A DNA stretch of 49,311 nucleotides from Pseudobdellovibrionaceae bacterium (lineage in GTDB: Bacteria > Bdellovibrionota > Bdellovibrionia > Bdellovibrionales > Bdellovibrionaceae), in assembly GCA_019637895.1 (NCBI GenBank), contig JAHBUU010000002.1:1-49311 (forward strand), read 5' to 3'. A program made the position numbers and the translations under genes. This document shows, piece after piece, positions 19,684-28,962 of the stretch (positions are counted from its first letter, which is position 1; each line of letters begins with the position of its first letter). The notes below the pieces were generated by a model. It searched no databases and was not told where the DNA came from. It saw only the letters and a program-made list of their open reading frames with translations.

Positions 19684-20613
19684 TCACTCTGGCAGGAATT
19701 CTTCTGTCTGAGGAATTTCCTGTTTCTGTCGGATTTCTTTCAGGCGGGTGCGGACATCTTCGGCCAACACTTCGAGATGTTTGAAGTCGTCACCGACCCT
19801 GAGTTTTAAACCACGATCCCGGCCATCCAAAGACTCTCTGAGAAACCTTTCGAAAGCGAAAATAGGTCCCGCTATTCGGTGCGAGAGATATTTTCCCAAA
19901 GCGAACAGAAGACCGCAGAAGGTCAGGCAGATCAGTCCGTAAGCAATGACAAATGGAACGATGAACTTGTTCAGCAAGTAAGGATTGTTGCCCACGAGTT
20001 CCGAGATGGTGACTCTCAGGTAGGTATATGAAAACACCAGCCCGATGAGGGTTAGACTGAGTCCTACGCCTACCAGGAAAAAAGAGTACTTGAGCTGGAA
20101 GCGGCGGTTCACCCAGTAATGTTTTCGAATGTCGTTCTCGGGCCAAAGGATCTGACCTTCTTTGATGACGGCGAGAATGATGAATCCATAGCCGATCCAC
20201 TGCAAGGCATCCGCCAAATTGAAAGCGGGGCTTGAAAGTGTCGGATTACCGATGACGATGAAGTCGACCACATATCCCCAAAAAATTCGGTCCGCCACAT
20301 TGCCAAGGATGCCGCCGGTCAGAATCGACAACCCGACTCTGAGAAGCAGAGACTTGATCGGCAGCATGAATTGAATCAGCGCATAGGTGCAAAGAATGAA
20401 CGCGCCACCCGTCGACAAGGTGACGACTCGCAAAACGCCCGGCAGATCCGTGAAGAGTCCAAGCATGGCTCCGTGATTGTGGTGCAGAACAAAATTGAAA
20501 GGACCTTTGGTTTGGATGCCGGTCAGACCGTTGGCCCACAGTTTTGTCACGCGGTCGATGACCCAGACAAAGATCAGAGATGAGAACACCAGAAGCCACT
20601 CACGCTTTCGCAT
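19684..20613 (-). CDS. lspA: LspA-type signal peptidase II fused to a HAMP-like two-helix module
   Basis: 309 aa, nearly twice the usual LspA length. Residues 1-155 are a lipoprotein signal peptidase with GNVADRIFWGYVVDFI and FNLADALQWIG, which supply the catalytic aspartates Asp117 and Asp135. Residues 165-295 add two further membrane helices (176-198 and 217-240). These are followed by SHRIAGPIFAFERFL and a charged helix with GDDFKHLEVLAED, a pattern seen in stand-alone HAMP-like membrane proteins. LspA removes signal peptides from prolipoproteins; this window encodes several lipoproteins. The fusion suggests regulation or localisation of the peptidase. Confidence 0.88.
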   Translation of the reverse strand: MRKREWLLVFSSLIFVWVIDRVTKLWANGLTGIQTKGPFNFVLHHNHGAMLGLFTDLPGVLRVVTLSTGGAFILCTYALIQFMLPIKSLLLRVGLSILTGGILGNVADRIFWGYVVDFIVIGNPTLSSPAFNLADALQWIGYGFIILAVIKEGQILWPENDIRKHYWVNRRFQLKYSFFLVGVGLSLTLIGLVFSYTYLRVTISELVGNNPYLLNKFIVPFVIAYGLICLTFCGLLFALGKYLSHRIAGPIFAFERFLRESLDGRDRGLKLRVGDDFKHLEVLAEDVRTRLKEIRQKQEIPQTEEFLPE

Positions 20614-20692
20614 AGCCCACTCTATCGGAAAAAAATTGCGCTGGGCAATTCGCGGGAACTATCATGAGAAGTCTTGGACAAAGGTGGAGCAG

Positions 20693-22117
20693 ATGAAAAG
20701 AGTGATCTTGTTTTTGGGTGCGGGGCTGCTGTCGGTTTCGGCTTTCGGAGCCAAGTCCGCTCCCGCCGATCTCAAAAAACGATTGGAAGCCAAGATTCAG
20801 GCCTCGGGTGTTCCCGCCGCGAACATGAGTCTGTACATCACGTCCGGGGAAGAGGGCGATGAAGTGATCTTGGATGTGAACTCCAAGAAAAGCCTGATTC
20901 CAGCCTCGATTTCCAAGGTGGCGACGGCCTCGGCCGCTTTGGAAGCCTTTCCTCCGGGCTACAAATTCAAAACCTCATTGTGGGCGGATGGAGCCCTGAA
21001 AGACGGTGTTCTGAAAGGACGGCTGGTTCTGGTTGGAGGAGGAGATCCTTCGTTCGTTTCCGAAAATATGTGGTTCCTGGTGAATCAGTTTTTGCGATCG
21101 GGGATCACAAAGATCGACGGTGACATTTTGGTCGATGATTCCCTTTTTGATGAAATCCGTTACGACGAAAGTCGCGAAGATTCTCGTGTTGATCGAGCTT
21201 ACGATGCCCCGGTCGGAGCGATGTCTTTCAACTGGAATTCGATCAATGTCTTTACGCGTCCCGCGCCGACGACCGGAAAACCGGCTTTGGTTTTTCTGGA
21301 TCCAGAGAATGCTTATACCAAGCTCGTCAATAAAACGACGACGGTGGCCGGTGCAGTCCGGGATATCCAAGTGGAAAGGAAAAGCGGAGCGGGCGCTTCG
21401 GGTGACACGTTGATCGTATCGGGCCGCATCGGAGTGAAAACCGATGAAGTCGTGGTTTTCAAAAACATCACCAAGCCGGATCTGTGGTCGGGAGAAAACC
21501 TGAAATCATTCCTTTCTCAGAGAGGCATCGAGGTCACAGGAAAGATCCTGTCCGGCAAGTTGCCAAAGACAGCCGAGCGAGTGGCCGAGGCGGAATCGAA
21601 ATCCATCGAACTCGTGATTGCGGACATGAACAAATTCTCGAATAACTACGTGGCCGAGATGCTGACTAAAAACATGGCCGCCATGGATGCAAAGCCCGCG
21701 AATCTGGCGAAAGGCGTTCAAAGGATCAACCGTCATCTGAAAGAACTCGGACTGCCGGAAGATCAGCTTGTCTTTAAGAATCCTTCCGGGTTGACCCGGG
21801 ACAATCGTCTAAGCGCCTTCGCAATGTGGAAGGTGTTGAATCATTTGAAGACGGATTTCCGAGTCCAACCCGAGTTCCTGATGTCGCTCCCGATTTCCGG
21901 AGTGGACGGCACCTTGAAATCCCGAATGAAAAATCCAAAAGCTCAACGCTGGGTTCGTGCCAAAACGGGACTTTTGACGGGAGTCACTGCTCTGGCGGGT
22001 TACGCGGGTCGTGAAGACGGAAAGGTTTTCACATTCGTGTTCATTCACAACGGACCTCAGGACGGGTCCAGAATGAGAAGCCTTTTTGATGATTGGCTCA
22101 CTTCTTTGATAGACTAA
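20693..22117 (+). CDS. dacB: D-alanyl-D-alanine carboxypeptidase/endopeptidase (PBP4, DacB)
   Basis: 474 aa from the ATG at 20693, which follows GGTGGAG and opens a signal peptide (MKRVILFLGAGLLSVSAFGA). The penicillin-binding motifs are in order: SISK (Ser72/Lys75), SNN (from Ser316) and KTG (424-426, RAKTGLLTGV). The long insert between the first two motifs is typical of class C PBP4 proteins. It trims peptidoglycan stem peptides or cross-links in the periplasm. An MltD-like transglycosylase gene follows 34 bases later, giving a wall-hydrolase pair. Confidence 0.95.
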   Translation: MKRVILFLGAGLLSVSAFGAKSAPADLKKRLEAKIQASGVPAANMSLYITSGEEGDEVILDVNSKKSLIPASISKVATASAALEAFPPGYKFKTSLWADGALKDGVLKGRLVLVGGGDPSFVSENMWFLVNQFLRSGITKIDGDILVDDSLFDEIRYDESREDSRVDRAYDAPVGAMSFNWNSINVFTRPAPTTGKPALVFLDPENAYTKLVNKTTTVAGAVRDIQVERKSGAGASGDTLIVSGRIGVKTDEVVVFKNITKPDLWSGENLKSFLSQRGIEVTGKILSGKLPKTAERVAEAESKSIELVIADMNKFSNNYVAEMLTKNMAAMDAKPANLAKGVQRINRHLKELGLPEDQLVFKNPSGLTRDNRLSAFAMWKVLNHLKTDFRVQPEFLMSLPISGVDGTLKSRMKNPKAQRWVRAKTGLLTGVTALAGYAGREDGKVFTFVFIHNGPQDGSRMRSLFDDWLTSLID

Positions 22118-22151
22118 AAAGACATACGCCTCACCGGGGAGGGTGGAAACT

Positions 22152-23624
22152 ATGATCGTCGCTTTTTTCCTGGCGGCTTTGTCGTCTATTTCGCTTGCGT
22201 CCCAGGACACCACGCCTGTTCGTTTGGATCCATTGTCGTCTCAGAAAGCGGTCTCTGACGGGCGTTCTTGGCGAGCTCCCGATTTTTCCGAACAGGAATC
22301 TGCCTTGGGGTGGACGTCGGAAGCGTTTGAAACTCCTCAAGGGATGGAAAAACGCGTTCAGTTCTGGATTGATATCTATACTCGCTATACGACTCAGCAA
22401 GGGGTCGTTCACGATCCTGAAAATATTGATTTGGTTTACGAGGTTGTCGATTTCTCTTCGGTCGAAGAGTCCGGTCTTCCTGCTTCCACCAGGGACAAGC
22501 TCAAGCGGAAAATGGTTGAAGACGCCAAGGACAAGGCCATTTCGACTCTCAAAAAGTTGTCTGGTTTGAAATCCGTGAAAGGCTTGCCCGAGAGCGATCA
22601 GCGGATTTGGGAGCGTTTCGCATCCGATTCCGATCCCGAGAAATTTCAGAAAGCCATGGATCCGTCTCGCTTGCGTTTTCAGTTGGGTCAAAAAGACCGC
22701 ATGCAGTCGGCGATTTTCTTGTCGGGGCGTTACCTCGAGGATTTCGAAAAGATCTTCAAAGAAGAAGGCCTTCCGATCGAGCTGACCCGATTGGTTTTCG
22801 TCGAGAGTTCCTTCAATGTGTTGGCGCGATCGAAAGTCGGAGCGAGTGGTCTTTGGCAGATCATGCGTGGAACCGCTCAACCCTTCCGGGTGATCTCGCC
22901 GGCTGTCGATGGTCGAAATCATCCGATCACGGCGACGAAAATCGCGGCCAAGACGCTGGCCTACAACTTCCGTATGCTTGGAAGCTGGCCGCTGGCCGTT
23001 ACTGGTTACAACCACGGCCCGGCCGGTGTGCGCCGGATCGTTGAGCGTTATGAAACCAAGAACCTGCCCGAACTGATCGAAAACGTTCGATCTCGGGCGA
23101 GCTTTGGTTTTGCTTCGAGAAACTTTTATGCCAGCTTCCTGGCCGCTCATCATGTCGAGAAAAATGCCGCTCGGTATTTCCCAGGCATTCAGTGGTCGAA
23201 GAAGTTCGATGCGGATGAGATCAAGCTTCCTCGTTCCGTCACCAACGCTCAACTGCTGGGTTGGTTTGGTGGCAATCGCACGAGCTTGCAACTTTACAAT
23301 CCGCATCTGACCCCACATGCAAAGCTGCGCGGGATTCCGCAAGGAACGGTTGTCTCGGTTCCTTCCGAGAACTACTCGAAGGTTCTGGCGGCCTTGGGCC
23401 GTTCAGCCAGAACGGTCGCTTCGAGACCTGTGGACCGAGTCAGTCGAGGTGCTGTGGCTTCCGAAGCTTCAAGAGGGCGGACGGTTCATCGTGTGGTGCG
23501 CGGAGAAAGTCTGACGACGATTGCGCGATCTTACGGGGTTTCTTTGTCGGCCTTGCTGAGAGAAAACGATATGAATCTCAAGCAGACGATCATCCCAGGA
23601 CAAAGGCTCCGGATCCCTCACTGA
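22152..23624 (+). CDS. MltD-like lytic transglycosylase with LysM domain
   Basis: 490 aa from the ATG at 22152, placed eight bases after GGGGAGGG. A signal peptide (MIVAFFLAALSSISLAS) is followed by about 150 residues of helical sequence. The SLT domain has catalytic Glu218 (LVFVESSFN), KVGASGLWQIMRGTA and TGYNHGPAG. A single LysM repeat lies at the C-terminus (VHRVVRGESLTTIARSYGV, ending PGQRLRIPH). The enzyme cleaves glycan strands to 1,6-anhydro-MurNAc ends and uses LysM for wall binding. The stop codon is embedded in a strong hairpin. Confidence 0.93.
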   Translation: MIVAFFLAALSSISLASQDTTPVRLDPLSSQKAVSDGRSWRAPDFSEQESALGWTSEAFETPQGMEKRVQFWIDIYTRYTTQQGVVHDPENIDLVYEVVDFSSVEESGLPASTRDKLKRKMVEDAKDKAISTLKKLSGLKSVKGLPESDQRIWERFASDSDPEKFQKAMDPSRLRFQLGQKDRMQSAIFLSGRYLEDFEKIFKEEGLPIELTRLVFVESSFNVLARSKVGASGLWQIMRGTAQPFRVISPAVDGRNHPITATKIAAKTLAYNFRMLGSWPLAVTGYNHGPAGVRRIVERYETKNLPELIENVRSRASFGFASRNFYASFLAAHHVEKNAARYFPGIQWSKKFDADEIKLPRSVTNAQLLGWFGGNRTSLQLYNPHLTPHAKLRGIPQGTVVSVPSENYSKVLAALGRSARTVASRPVDRVSRGAVASEASRGRTVHRVVRGESLTTIARSYGVSLSALLRENDMNLKQTIIPGQRLRIPH

Positions 23625-25057: not shown

Positions 25058-27577
25058 TCAGAAACCGCCTGCATTTCTGAAGACGGCTTCACAGCGTCCA
25101 CCACCCATAGCCGCCGCGGCCGGGAGCAGGCGCAAAGTCTTCGGAGTCATCACGCGTTTTTCCAGTTTCCCATCGATTCCTGCCTCGAGCAAAAACTGAC
25201 CGAGAGCCTGTCCGCCCACACGGAGGCCGGATGTCTTAAGTGTTTTTTTGATGGCCTCGATTGAGCGGGTCACGGTCGGCAGAGGTCTGATTTTTTGTCG
25301 AGCAACCCAGTTCGGTGTGATGAGAGCACGGGTGCCGCCTCGGTGTTTACCGAGAGCATCGATGACATGATCGCCGCCGGTGCCTTCCCATGCGCGAGAC
25401 CACCACGTCAGATGAACACGGGGGATGTCTTTCATCTGAGCCGTGATGGTTTTTCCTTTCCCCCAGCCAAGTCGGCTTTGTGAATCGGAGGCGGCTTGGG
25501 CGATGCCGGATTTCACATCCATGCCTTCTCGGTCGATATTGATGACCGGGATTTGCGCCATCTTCAATTGATGAAGAACGCGGGTCATTTCTTGTTTCGC
25601 AATCGGGCCATCGGTGTAAATCGCTTCGATTTTTCCGCTCTTGAGTGCTTCGCGGATGGCGACCTCGCGATATTTTTCCGTGCGTTGACGGGTAACTTCC
25701 CACTCTTCGGCGGTGGCTCCGTCCATTCCGACAGGGACCGTTTTGATCACCAAATACTTGTCGCCGACGCCGAGATCGGACATCAACCCGTTCAGCACCT
25801 GGCCACGGGCACCGGTCAAGGCGCGAGCGGTGATCCAATCATCGATTCCATGAGGGTCCGCAAGAATCAGAACTCGGGAGTCGGTAAAGGATCCACGATG
25901 GAATCCGAAGAGACCTGTGTCTGGATGGGTTTTGGTGTTGTAAGCATCGATGCCGAATTTTTCGAAGGAGGCATCTTGGCCTTTGGCGTCCACGGCCTTC
26001 ATTCCCGCCTTCGGTTCAAACAGCAGTTCTCGGTCGATGCTCGAGATCAAGGCTTTGGCGATTTCAGGTCCCGGGCCACGGTCAAATTCATAGCGGGCGG
26101 CACCTGTGCGTGGACGAACGGACCACAGGTCTTCGGGATTCAGTACCTCTGATGGCAGTGTCTCTTTCGAAGAGGTGATCAGATTCATATCGAATTTCAC
26201 TCGGTCTCTCGATCCTGCAACGATGGTTTGCGGATCGAGACGTGAGGCGTCCGCTCTGGAAACGCGTCGGTCGTCGGGCGCACCGAATTCAAAGTAGCCG
26301 GGGCGAATATCGGCTCGTCCATAACGATAGTCTTTTCCTTCGTGCCACATATTGCGACGAAGCTTCCCGTCGTCATCAAGGTCGGGTTCGACTTTCCAAC
26401 CGAGGGCCTTGAGTTCATTCAGACGATTGAAAGACTTCTTCAGGGCTTCGGAGGCGGCCTCGGGGGTCATTTTGCTCAGAGAACTCGGGTGAGCGGACAT
26501 CGTGAAGCCGATATGGTCTTTCACGATGGTGCCATCAGACAGACGGAGCCCTTTCATGGAGTTCGTTCGTTGTCCGTTGATTTCGACGGCGTCGAGATCA
26601 TATCCGCCGAGCTGTGCGGCGTTCATGATTCCGCTTTTTTCCGCGCCGCCTTGGGTGAAGACCATGAGTTCGATCGCTCGCTTTGGATTTTCCTTGGCGG
26701 CTTTGACGGCGGCCACTTGATCGGCGGGCTTCGAGTAGTCAGGCTTTCGACCGAGCAGGATTTCGTAGACGTCTTTGCCGTCTTTGGTGACGGGAACGGG
26801 GAATTCGTTGTTTCCGCCCGCATAGACGAGTTTGGTTTCAGGAACGCGGATATTCGCCAGACGATCAGGATTCATTTTGGGCGACACTTTAGCGCCTCGA
26901 GCGATCAGGAACTCGGCAAAGGCGTCCCTGGAGGCGCCACCGAACAGAATCATCAATCTCATGCTGTCGGGGTTGTTCTTGATCATCCACTCCCAGAAAA
27001 GCTCTCGTTGTTTGCGGATTTCGCTATCGGCGCCGTTTGCGAGCATCCACAGCTGGTTGTCGACGAAAGAGGATTGACGCAACAGAGGCTCGCCCACTTT
27101 GTCGAATTCGACAAACAGATGATCGAAGGATCCGTATTGGCCTTTGATGGTCGACAAAAAGGCGTTGGTGGTCGACACGCCCTGGTCGACACCGAAATAG
27201 TTGCCGACGCTTTGAACGCGGGCGCCGAAGCCGGAGGTGCCCGGCTGTTTCGCGGCTTCTGCAATGTGGGTGGCGTCCTGTCCGATGAAGAGAATTTTGA
27301 CGTCATTTTTATCGAAGCTGGTTCTGGTCATCATGAGGCCGAAGATGTAACGGAATTTTTGCTGATCCATGATCTGATCCGACATCACCGAATACTCAGG
27401 CAGACTGGCGTACAGATCGATCAGGGCCCGACCCTCGGCGGTTTTTGGATCGGGACCGGCGTTGTACTCCCACTGGGTGCCTTCCTTGATTCCGAAGGTG
27501 GTGGCCAAGGATTGCAGCGGGAACGAGATCAATAGCAGGGCATGGATGAACGCAAAGAAGGTCTTTTCCAAACGCAT
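25058..27577 (-). CDS. Exported protein with two uracil-DNA-glycosylase-like halves
   Basis: 839 aa. The signal peptide covers residues 1 to about 26 (FFAFIHALLLISFPLQSLAT). The first half (about 60-400) resembles the UDG superfamily. ILFIGQDATH (99-104) parallels the family-1 GQDPYH loop and keeps its Asp. FGARVQSVGNYFGV and TTNAF follow, LMILFGGASRDAF parallels the UDG core strand, and HPSSLS (363-368) parallels the family-1 HPSPLS motif, keeping its His. The second half (about 500-760) repeats the layout in degenerate form: ILADPHGIDDW (571-581), GARGQVLNGLM and EAIYTDGPIAKQEM, with no HPS. Activity on DNA is not shown; the export signal makes a periplasmic or extracellular site likely. 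Confidence 0.65.
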   Translation of the reverse strand: MRLEKTFFAFIHALLLISFPLQSLATTFGIKEGTQWEYNAGPDPKTAEGRALIDLYASLPEYSVMSDQIMDQQKFRYIFGLMMTRTSFDKNDVKILFIGQDATHIAEAAKQPGTSGFGARVQSVGNYFGVDQGVSTTNAFLSTIKGQYGSFDHLFVEFDKVGEPLLRQSSFVDNQLWMLANGADSEIRKQRELFWEWMIKNNPDSMRLMILFGGASRDAFAEFLIARGAKVSPKMNPDRLANIRVPETKLVYAGGNNEFPVPVTKDGKDVYEILLGRKPDYSKPADQVAAVKAAKENPKRAIELMVFTQGGAEKSGIMNAAQLGGYDLDAVEINGQRTNSMKGLRLSDGTIVKDHIGFTMSAHPSSLSKMTPEAASEALKKSFNRLNELKALGWKVEPDLDDDGKLRRNMWHEGKDYRYGRADIRPGYFEFGAPDDRRVSRADASRLDPQTIVAGSRDRVKFDMNLITSSKETLPSEVLNPEDLWSVRPRTGAARYEFDRGPGPEIAKALISSIDRELLFEPKAGMKAVDAKGQDASFEKFGIDAYNTKTHPDTGLFGFHRGSFTDSRVLILADPHGIDDWITARALTGARGQVLNGLMSDLGVGDKYLVIKTVPVGMDGATAEEWEVTRQRTEKYREVAIREALKSGKIEAIYTDGPIAKQEMTRVLHQLKMAQIPVINIDREGMDVKSGIAQAASDSQSRLGWGKGKTITAQMKDIPRVHLTWWSRAWEGTGGDHVIDALGKHRGGTRALITPNWVARQKIRPLPTVTRSIEAIKKTLKTSGLRVGGQALGQFLLEAGIDGKLEKRVMTPKTLRLLPAAAAMGGGRCEAVFRNAGGF

Positions 27578-27756: not shown

Positions 27757-28962
27757 TTACTGAATCACGCCATAAGGATTGGCGGCATGCTCGAGAAGAT
27801 AGAGAACAGGTTCGATATTTTTTTGAACTGTCGCTGGGATGGCGCCAGCACCGGGATAGAATCCGCCTCCGCCCCAGCGTCCTGGATCAAGCTCGAAGGT
27901 GAAGGAAATGATCCCATGCACGCCGTAAGACCAATCGGTGGCATCACCACTGGCGGTGTACAAACCAGAACTTTGCATCGGCGTATAGCCATTCCACTGT
28001 GCCATGGTTCTGGCCATCGTTTCGTGGACTCGCCGGTCGGCATCGTTCGCGATTGAGGTGTAGGTATGTCCCCATGGATACAGAATGAGTTGTGAATAGG
28101 TGTGGAAGCTCAGCAAGACCGTGATGTTCTCGTGGGCTTCGACGTAATCGCGGATGGCTCGGGTCTCGGGTTCGCTGAAAGCCGACTTTCCCCGGAATGT
28201 TTCCGATGAAGGAGAGGGCGATGCACCCGTCGTTCCCCAGGCGTAATCGTAATTGCGATTCAGATCGACACCGTAGGTGTTGTTGTCATTTTGCGTGCGG
28301 TTTTTTCTCCAAGAACGGTAGCGACCGGATTCGACGTCGTAGGCAAGGCCATCCGGATTCACGGCTGGAATCAGGTGGATGTCGCGGCCGTCGATGAGCG
28401 TGCGGACTCTTTCATCGCCTTGAGCGTATCTTTCGAGGAGAATTTCCCAGATCCGAAGGGGGGTTTCCACGGACAGATGTTCGCGAGCATGATGCCCACC
28501 CATATAAATGATGCCCGGAAGCTGTTCGGCTTTCGCAAGATTGCCAGAGATTCGCAGTGCCCAGATATCTCGGTCTTCGACGGTTTTTCCTACGGAGGAG
28601 ATTCTTACGAGCGTCGGGTATTTTCTGACCAATTCATCCATGGCGGCCTTCAGGCGAGCCTCATCGTGAAAGGCGCCGTCTCCGGCCGGGAAGTCCTTGG
28701 TGTCGGTTTGAACAGGGAAGCTGACTTCGACGAAGTTCATTTTTTCCAGACGGCGAAGCTCGGTTTGAGTTCCGGTGGCGGTCACGAAGTCGTCGGCGAT
28801 GGTTTCGATGGCGACGCCGGTGTCGGCAATCACGCTACGCTCGAATTTTGAATGTGCCTTCAGCTTCATCCAATAAAGCTGGTCATCCGTGGATTCGGCA
28901 TGAGTGCTTGAGAGCATTCCGAACGCGAAAAGACTTAAGAGTAAGAAAGCCTTTGATGGCAT
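27757..28962 (-). CDS. Exported M14 zinc carboxypeptidase
   Basis: 401 aa. A signal peptide (1 to about 22) and propeptide-like region (to about 100) precede the carboxypeptidase A/T fold. Zinc ligands His158 and Glu161 sit in GGHHAREHLS and His287 in LLSFHTYSQ. Substrate-binding Arg and Asn appear in DLNRNYDYAW, and catalytic Glu357 in SFTFELDP. The enzyme should remove C-terminal residues from peptides outside the cytoplasm. All required residues are present. GGAAGGGG precedes the ATG. It lies in a minus-strand run next to other exported proteins. Confidence 0.93.
   Translation of the reverse strand: MPSKAFLLLSLFAFGMLSSTHAESTDDQLYWMKLKAHSKFERSVIADTGVAIETIADDFVTATGTQTELRRLEKMNFVEVSFPVQTDTKDFPAGDGAFHDEARLKAAMDELVRKYPTLVRISSVGKTVEDRDIWALRISGNLAKAEQLPGIIYMGGHHAREHLSVETPLRIWEILLERYAQGDERVRTLIDGRDIHLIPAVNPDGLAYDVESGRYRSWRKNRTQNDNNTYGVDLNRNYDYAWGTTGASPSPSSETFRGKSAFSEPETRAIRDYVEAHENITVLLSFHTYSQLILYPWGHTYTSIANDADRRVHETMARTMAQWNGYTPMQSSGLYTASGDATDWSYGVHGIISFTFELDPGRWGGGGFYPGAGAIPATVQKNIEPVLYLLEHAANPYGVIQ

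Follow-up and report, generated by a model that had tools for sequence, protein, structure and literature searches.

DNA glycosylases count as repair enzymes that work inside the cell, and, to our knowledge, all characterized uracil-DNA glycosylases (UDGs) are intracellular. The classical UDG family 1 (Ung) features GQDPYH as motif A and HPSPLS as motif B; the roles of its GQD, of the uracil-reading Asn, and of the motif B His have been described (PMC5387724, PMC10359453). BdiUNG (Blr0248, PDB 5gn2) of Bradyrhizobium diazoefficiens is described in PMC8307549, which cites Chembazhi et al. 2017, as a separate UDG class of broad specificity; BdiUNG-like enzymes are reported there to have a wide range, with uracil derivatives, hypoxanthine, and xanthine as possible substrates. 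BdiUNG is a single domain of 272 aa and is treated as a DNA-repair enzyme.

The protein described here is encoded by a Pseudobdellovibrionaceae genome within a stretch of 49,311 nucleotides that was analyzed as a whole and is called the window (Table 1). It resembles BdiUNG in the predicted fold, the full domain length, the GQD of motif A, and the NTF, HPT, and DLPxGxPxWM segments. However, it carries two such domains in tandem behind an export signal, its family has GQ[DE][AG].. where BdiUNG has GQDP, and the second domain has no pocket.

Table 1. Features of the tandem UDG-like gene and its surroundings (positions in the window)
Feature	Residues	Position	Strand	Remarks
CDS, exported tandem UDG-like protein	839 aa	25058..27577	minus	ATG start; homologues align over nearly the full length
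Signal peptide	1–25	27503..27577	minus	Probable SPase I cleavage after SLA; called from sequence; a signal peptide or lipobox lies here in nearly all full-length relatives
Unit 1, BdiUNG-class UDG domain	about 36–460	26198..27472	minus	Pocket residues kept
Unit 1 motif A, GQDATH	99–104	27266..27283	minus	Aligns with GQDPAQ of 5gn2
Unit 1 TNAF	137–140	27158..27169	minus	Asn138 is the equivalent of the uracil-recognizing Asn; aligns with VNTF of 5gn2
Unit 1 motif B, HPSSLS	363–368	26474..26491	minus	His is the equivalent of the leaving-group-stabilizing His; aligns with HPT of 5gn2
Unit 2, predicted UDG fold without catalytic residues	about 497–760	25298..26089	minus	hhalign to unit 1; AF2 and Foldseek
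Unit 2 ADPHG at the motif A position	573–577	25847..25861	minus	Asp574 invariant (D 57/57)
Unit 2 KTVP in place of the uracil-recognizing Asn	612–615	25733..25744	minus	K/R 51/57, P 57/57
Unit 2 C-terminal signature, IPRVHL...WEGTGGDH	718–737	25367..25426	minus	Counterpart of BdiUNG KDLPAGLPAWMRGD
Exported protein with regularly spaced Cys-containing repeats	164 aa	24475–24969	minus	Directly downstream of the UDG-like gene; no Pfam match
Exported M14 carboxypeptidase		27757–28962	minus
SLT-LysM protein		22143–23621	opposite to the UDG-like gene	Cell-wall enzyme
S13 D-Ala-D-Ala carboxypeptidase		20477–22114	opposite to the UDG-like gene	Cell-wall enzyme
Strong stem-loop		27582–27629	minus	Ends a few bases before the UDG-like start codon

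Relationship to BdiUNG and other uracil-DNA glycosylases

The window protein alone has no UDG match in Pfam or NCBIfam and falls into no curated family; Pfam SpoU and NCBIfam L16 matches lie below the cut-off and were rejected. Searched by phmmer against the PDB, it yields one weak match, that of its C-terminal half to BdiUNG 5gn2 (E = 6e-4). An alignment of 26 members (A1) was built from relatives in 100 related genomes. With the A1 profile, 5gn2 scores E = 1.9e-20, and the alignment of the first half takes in the GQD motif and the NxF segment. Behind it come other UDGs that match at motif A, at E of 0.3–0.9 only. The UDG-superfamily kinship that the initial annotation had claimed for the first half is thereby borne out by the match to a solved UDG. 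When ten repeat units of short-form relatives, drawn from both halves, are combined, the resulting profile matches residues 30–253 of the 272 of 5gn2 at E = 1.8e-32; this match includes the HPT of motif B and the DLPxGxPxWM signature at the C-terminus. Since this match covers 5gn2 nearly end to end, each repeat unit corresponds to a complete BdiUNG-type domain.

The short-form relatives are a subfamily of about 640–790 aa (L104, L117–L121, and others) that carries GQEGAQDE in place of GQD[AG]TH and is the closest to BdiUNG. Their first halves match 5gn2 as a profile at E = 7.8e-22, are 33–45% identical to BdiUNG in the aligned core, and match Pfam UDG (PF03167) weakly in five out of five cases (best E 5.7e-5).

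The motifs quoted in the initial annotation all occur at the residues given there: in addition to those of Table 1, unit 1 features FGARVQSVGNYFGV at residues 117–130, TTNAF at 136–140, and LMILFGG at 208–214. In the sequence profile, these motifs pair residue by residue with GQD, NTF, and HPT of BdiUNG. Unit 1 has motif A, the NTF segment, and motif B of the BdiUNG class in this order, and the alignment of the unit profile adds the C-terminal DLPxGxPxWM segment.

Compared with UDG family 1, GQD..H and HPSSLS echo the Ung motifs and the Asn and His equivalents are kept, whereas the Pro-Tyr after GQD is missing and the protein is exported and duplicated. No significant whole-domain sequence match to family 1 is found (best E 0.3), nor is there an Ung match in Pfam or NCBIfam, and GQDATH places the window protein outside this family. 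UDG family 4 and UdgX are the next best structural matches after BdiUNG, but the protein has GQDAT where these have GE[AG]PG (GE[AG/Q]PG with the UdgX variant), features no UdgX KRRIH loop, and, with one Cys in its mature form, has too few cysteines for an Fe-S cluster; it belongs to neither.

The structure of the full-length protein was predicted by AF2 on A1 with a pLDDT of 89.7 and a pTM of 0.87. Foldseek against the PDB places 5gn2 first (E = 7.3e-10), followed by family-4 UDGs, UdgX, and SMUG1. Unit 2, modeled alone from its own alignment (A5), reached a pLDDT of 92.3, and here too 5gn2 is the top match (E = 8.8e-12, with a TM of 0.72 on the target). Foldseek covered the full length and the second half; the match of the first half to 5gn2 comes from the sequence profile. 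The initial annotation had made its reading depend on a UDG α/β/α core, and this core is indeed predicted, with both searched models matching UDGs ahead of other folds. Two complete UDG-superfamily domains in the 839-aa protein are thus confirmed at the level of profiles and predicted models.

Origin of the two units

The two halves align with each other by hhalign at 96–97% probability (E of 4e-9 to 2e-11). A weaker second copy had been placed at residues 565–760; the copy is real but longer, spanning about 497–760. Even a fragment of BdiUNG used alone as the query matches both halves of short-form relatives—at E of 2e-20 and 8e-14 for the two halves of one 708-aa protein. In a maximum-likelihood tree of 101 units, all second units split from all first units with a support of 100/100; BdiUNG, itself on a long branch, groups with the first units. 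This clean split indicates that the duplication happened once, before the family spread. As judged by the unit sequences, a single old tandem duplication in the Bdellovibrionota lineage explains the whole family.

Conservation of the pocket

Among 57 members, the motif A residues of unit 1 are kept as G in 57, Q in 55, and D or E in 56 (D 42, E 14), and the Asn is kept in 56. The His-Pro of motif B is present in all 55 members having residues at those columns, and most long forms carry HP[ST]xLS, which resembles Ung HPSPLS. In unit 2, AD[PQ] replaces GQ[DE], Lys or Arg occupies the position of the Asn, and the HP motif is missing, so that this unit is by sequence not a UDG enzyme; in the alignment of the units, the Asp of its ADPHG sits opposite the unit 1 Gln of GQ[DE]. 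The initial statement that the Asp and His equivalents are retained therefore applies to unit 1 but not to unit 2, in which no catalytic residue is left.

Unit 2 is nevertheless not decaying: among long forms, the mean pairwise identity of its motif A core is 59%, on a par with the 60% of unit 1. Its C-terminal signature (residues 716–760) reaches 53% among long forms, and new conserved signatures, ADPxGxDD and IPRxHL...WEGTSGDR, have appeared in it.

In two divergent members, L023 and L030, the unit 1 pocket is broken and the export signal is kept. L030, from the other genome of the window's genus (G001), has shrunk to about 525 aa and lacks the pocket residues in both units, while its lipoprotein signal stays; it is possibly a pure binding version.

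Export

Signal peptides were called by eye and by a hydrophobicity scan. The N-terminus of the window protein reads MRLEKTFFAFIHALLLISFPLQSLA and continues with TT after the cleavage site; its basic n-region is followed by a hydrophobic stretch and by SLA ahead of TT, which by these means makes it a typical Sec signal peptide, in agreement with the initial annotation. Nearly all full-length relatives carry an SPase I or lipoprotein-type export signal, and several are lipoproteins. The presence of the signal is conserved and its sequence is not (17% identity), as expected of signal peptides. Both attributes first noted for the window protein, exported and duplicated, hold across the family as judged by the N-terminal signals and the unit tree. 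Most of the proteins are basic in their mature form, with a median pI of 8.9, which fits nucleic-acid binding as a weak indication.

Distribution

Members of the family occur in 80 of 369 genomes of the phylum, and a genome rarely has more than one. The named relatives come almost all from metagenome-assembled genomes and are labeled Bdellovibrionaceae, Bacteriovoracaceae, Halobacteriovoraceae, Oligoflexales, Deltaproteobacteria, and the like. In the genus that is probably Bdellovibrio itself, the family is absent from the 19 genomes searched. Short and long forms were not seen together in any one genome, which suggests the same role for both; one genome (G156) carries two short-form copies. 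A phage or plasmid origin was considered and rejected: neither the 50,697 phage records nor the 72,556 plasmid records searched contain a match, and a search of IMG/VR with the long-form patterns gave no confirmed relative.

The genome of the window also encodes a canonical cytosolic Ung (L001) with GQDPYH and HPSPLS, so the tandem protein is not the housekeeping UDG. Marginal BdiUNG matches to ORFs of about 460 aa in the probable Bdellovibrio genus were set aside as UdgX-like, with GEQPG, RIHKKP, and no signal peptide, and are probably of the known cytosolic type. Related genomes encode UDGs of the UdgX/family-4 type (L110–L116), six of about 460–490 aa with a long N-terminal extension and one of about 216 aa, probably of the known cytosolic type.

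Genomic neighborhood

On the minus strand, the UDG-like gene stands between the gene of the exported M14 carboxypeptidase, which it follows, and the genes of the small Cys-rich exported protein and a TetR regulator, which come after it; two cell-wall enzyme genes lie nearby in the opposite orientation (Table 1). A conserved operon was rejected because, across 40 loci, no gene recurs beside the family gene in more than a few. The nearby thyA and folA of the window hence carry no weight. With neither a conserved neighborhood nor the gene in the probable Bdellovibrio genus, prey DNA as the target has no specific support.

No clear Shine–Dalgarno sequence is visible at the UDG-like gene. The stem-loop upstream of the start codon has a minimum free energy of −38.1 kcal/mol for a stretch of 101 nt (z −2.35); it is not apparent in an alignment with the three nearest relatives and has no Rfam match.

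Function

The reading that we favor, with moderate confidence, is that of a nucleic-acid base-excision enzyme built as an exported tandem of BdiUNG-class domains, to judge by motifs and predicted models; it may act on DNA outside the cytoplasm. At a periplasmic or outer-surface location, unit 1 would flip a damaged or non-canonical base from extracytoplasmic nucleic acid and hydrolyze the glycosidic bond, with uracil, hypoxanthine, xanthine, and oxidized uracil as candidate bases given the breadth of BdiUNG. Asp101 would place the water, Asn138 would read the base, His363 would stabilize the leaving base, and Leu367 would occupy the vacated space. Unit 2 would assist without catalysis of its own, holding either the nucleic acid or a partner molecule, and the natural substrate could be DNA released from prey, DNA of the environment, or entering mobile elements. 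Tentatively, the family might be described as secreted or surface tandem UDGs that clear prey, environmental, or invading phage DNA of modified or deaminated bases, with the pseudo-UDG half as a processivity or docking module.

Several observations weigh against base excision. The Pro-Tyr that follows GQD in Ung is missing from motif A (GQDATH versus GQDPYH) and the short forms have GQE for GQD, so the chemistry or the substrate may differ; L023 and L030, pocketless yet exported, make a non-enzymatic role possible at least there. Among the homologue loci compared, no conserved gene neighbor points to DNA, and uracil-containing extracellular DNA is not an obvious food source.

The foremost alternative is an exported binder of nucleic acids or nucleobases—a DNA adhesin, a receptor, or a salvage-binding protein—whose unit 1 pocket holds a base, a nucleoside, or DNA without cleaving it. 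Non-enzymatic UDG folds are known, such as vaccinia D4, which acts as a processivity factor; the equal conservation of a unit 2 devoid of catalytic residues, by which half of the protein is already under selection for a job other than catalysis, the lipoprotein members, and the GQE of the short forms fit such a binder as well. We hold it to be rather unlikely: the Asp (in 42 members) or Glu (in 14) that activates the water is kept together with the His-Pro and the long-form Leu of HP[ST]xLS, a combination that catalysis, and not mere binding, needs.

Recruitment of the fold for an envelope job unrelated to nucleic acids, by binding peptidoglycan, a glycan, or a protein partner, is improbable. 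The location outside the cytoplasm, the new unit 2 signatures, and the SLT-LysM and S13 carboxypeptidase genes nearby would suit it, but a base-recognition Asn in 56 of 57 members and a His in 55 of 55 are hard to explain without a base-like ligand, and the homologue neighborhoods have no recurrent genes. An ordinary cytoplasmic repair enzyme with its hydrophobic N-terminus as an anchor or a mis-called start, for which the intracellular location of characterized UDGs would speak, is hardly credible given that this widely diverged family has an N-terminal signal or lipobox in almost every full-length member and that the signal segment is as unconserved in sequence as signal peptides are.

No secreted UDG was found described in the open-licence literature searched. 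What is new is the duplication and export of BdiUNG-class domains; no such protein is described in the same papers. A fold and a kinship are now given to a protein that has no Pfam or NCBIfam match, and a new lead is added to the predator secretome. It raises a testable question, namely whether base excision takes place on extracellular DNA or a base-binding pocket has been recruited otherwise. As judged by its export signals, the family shows that the UDG fold has crossed the inner membrane in a phylum of predatory bacteria.
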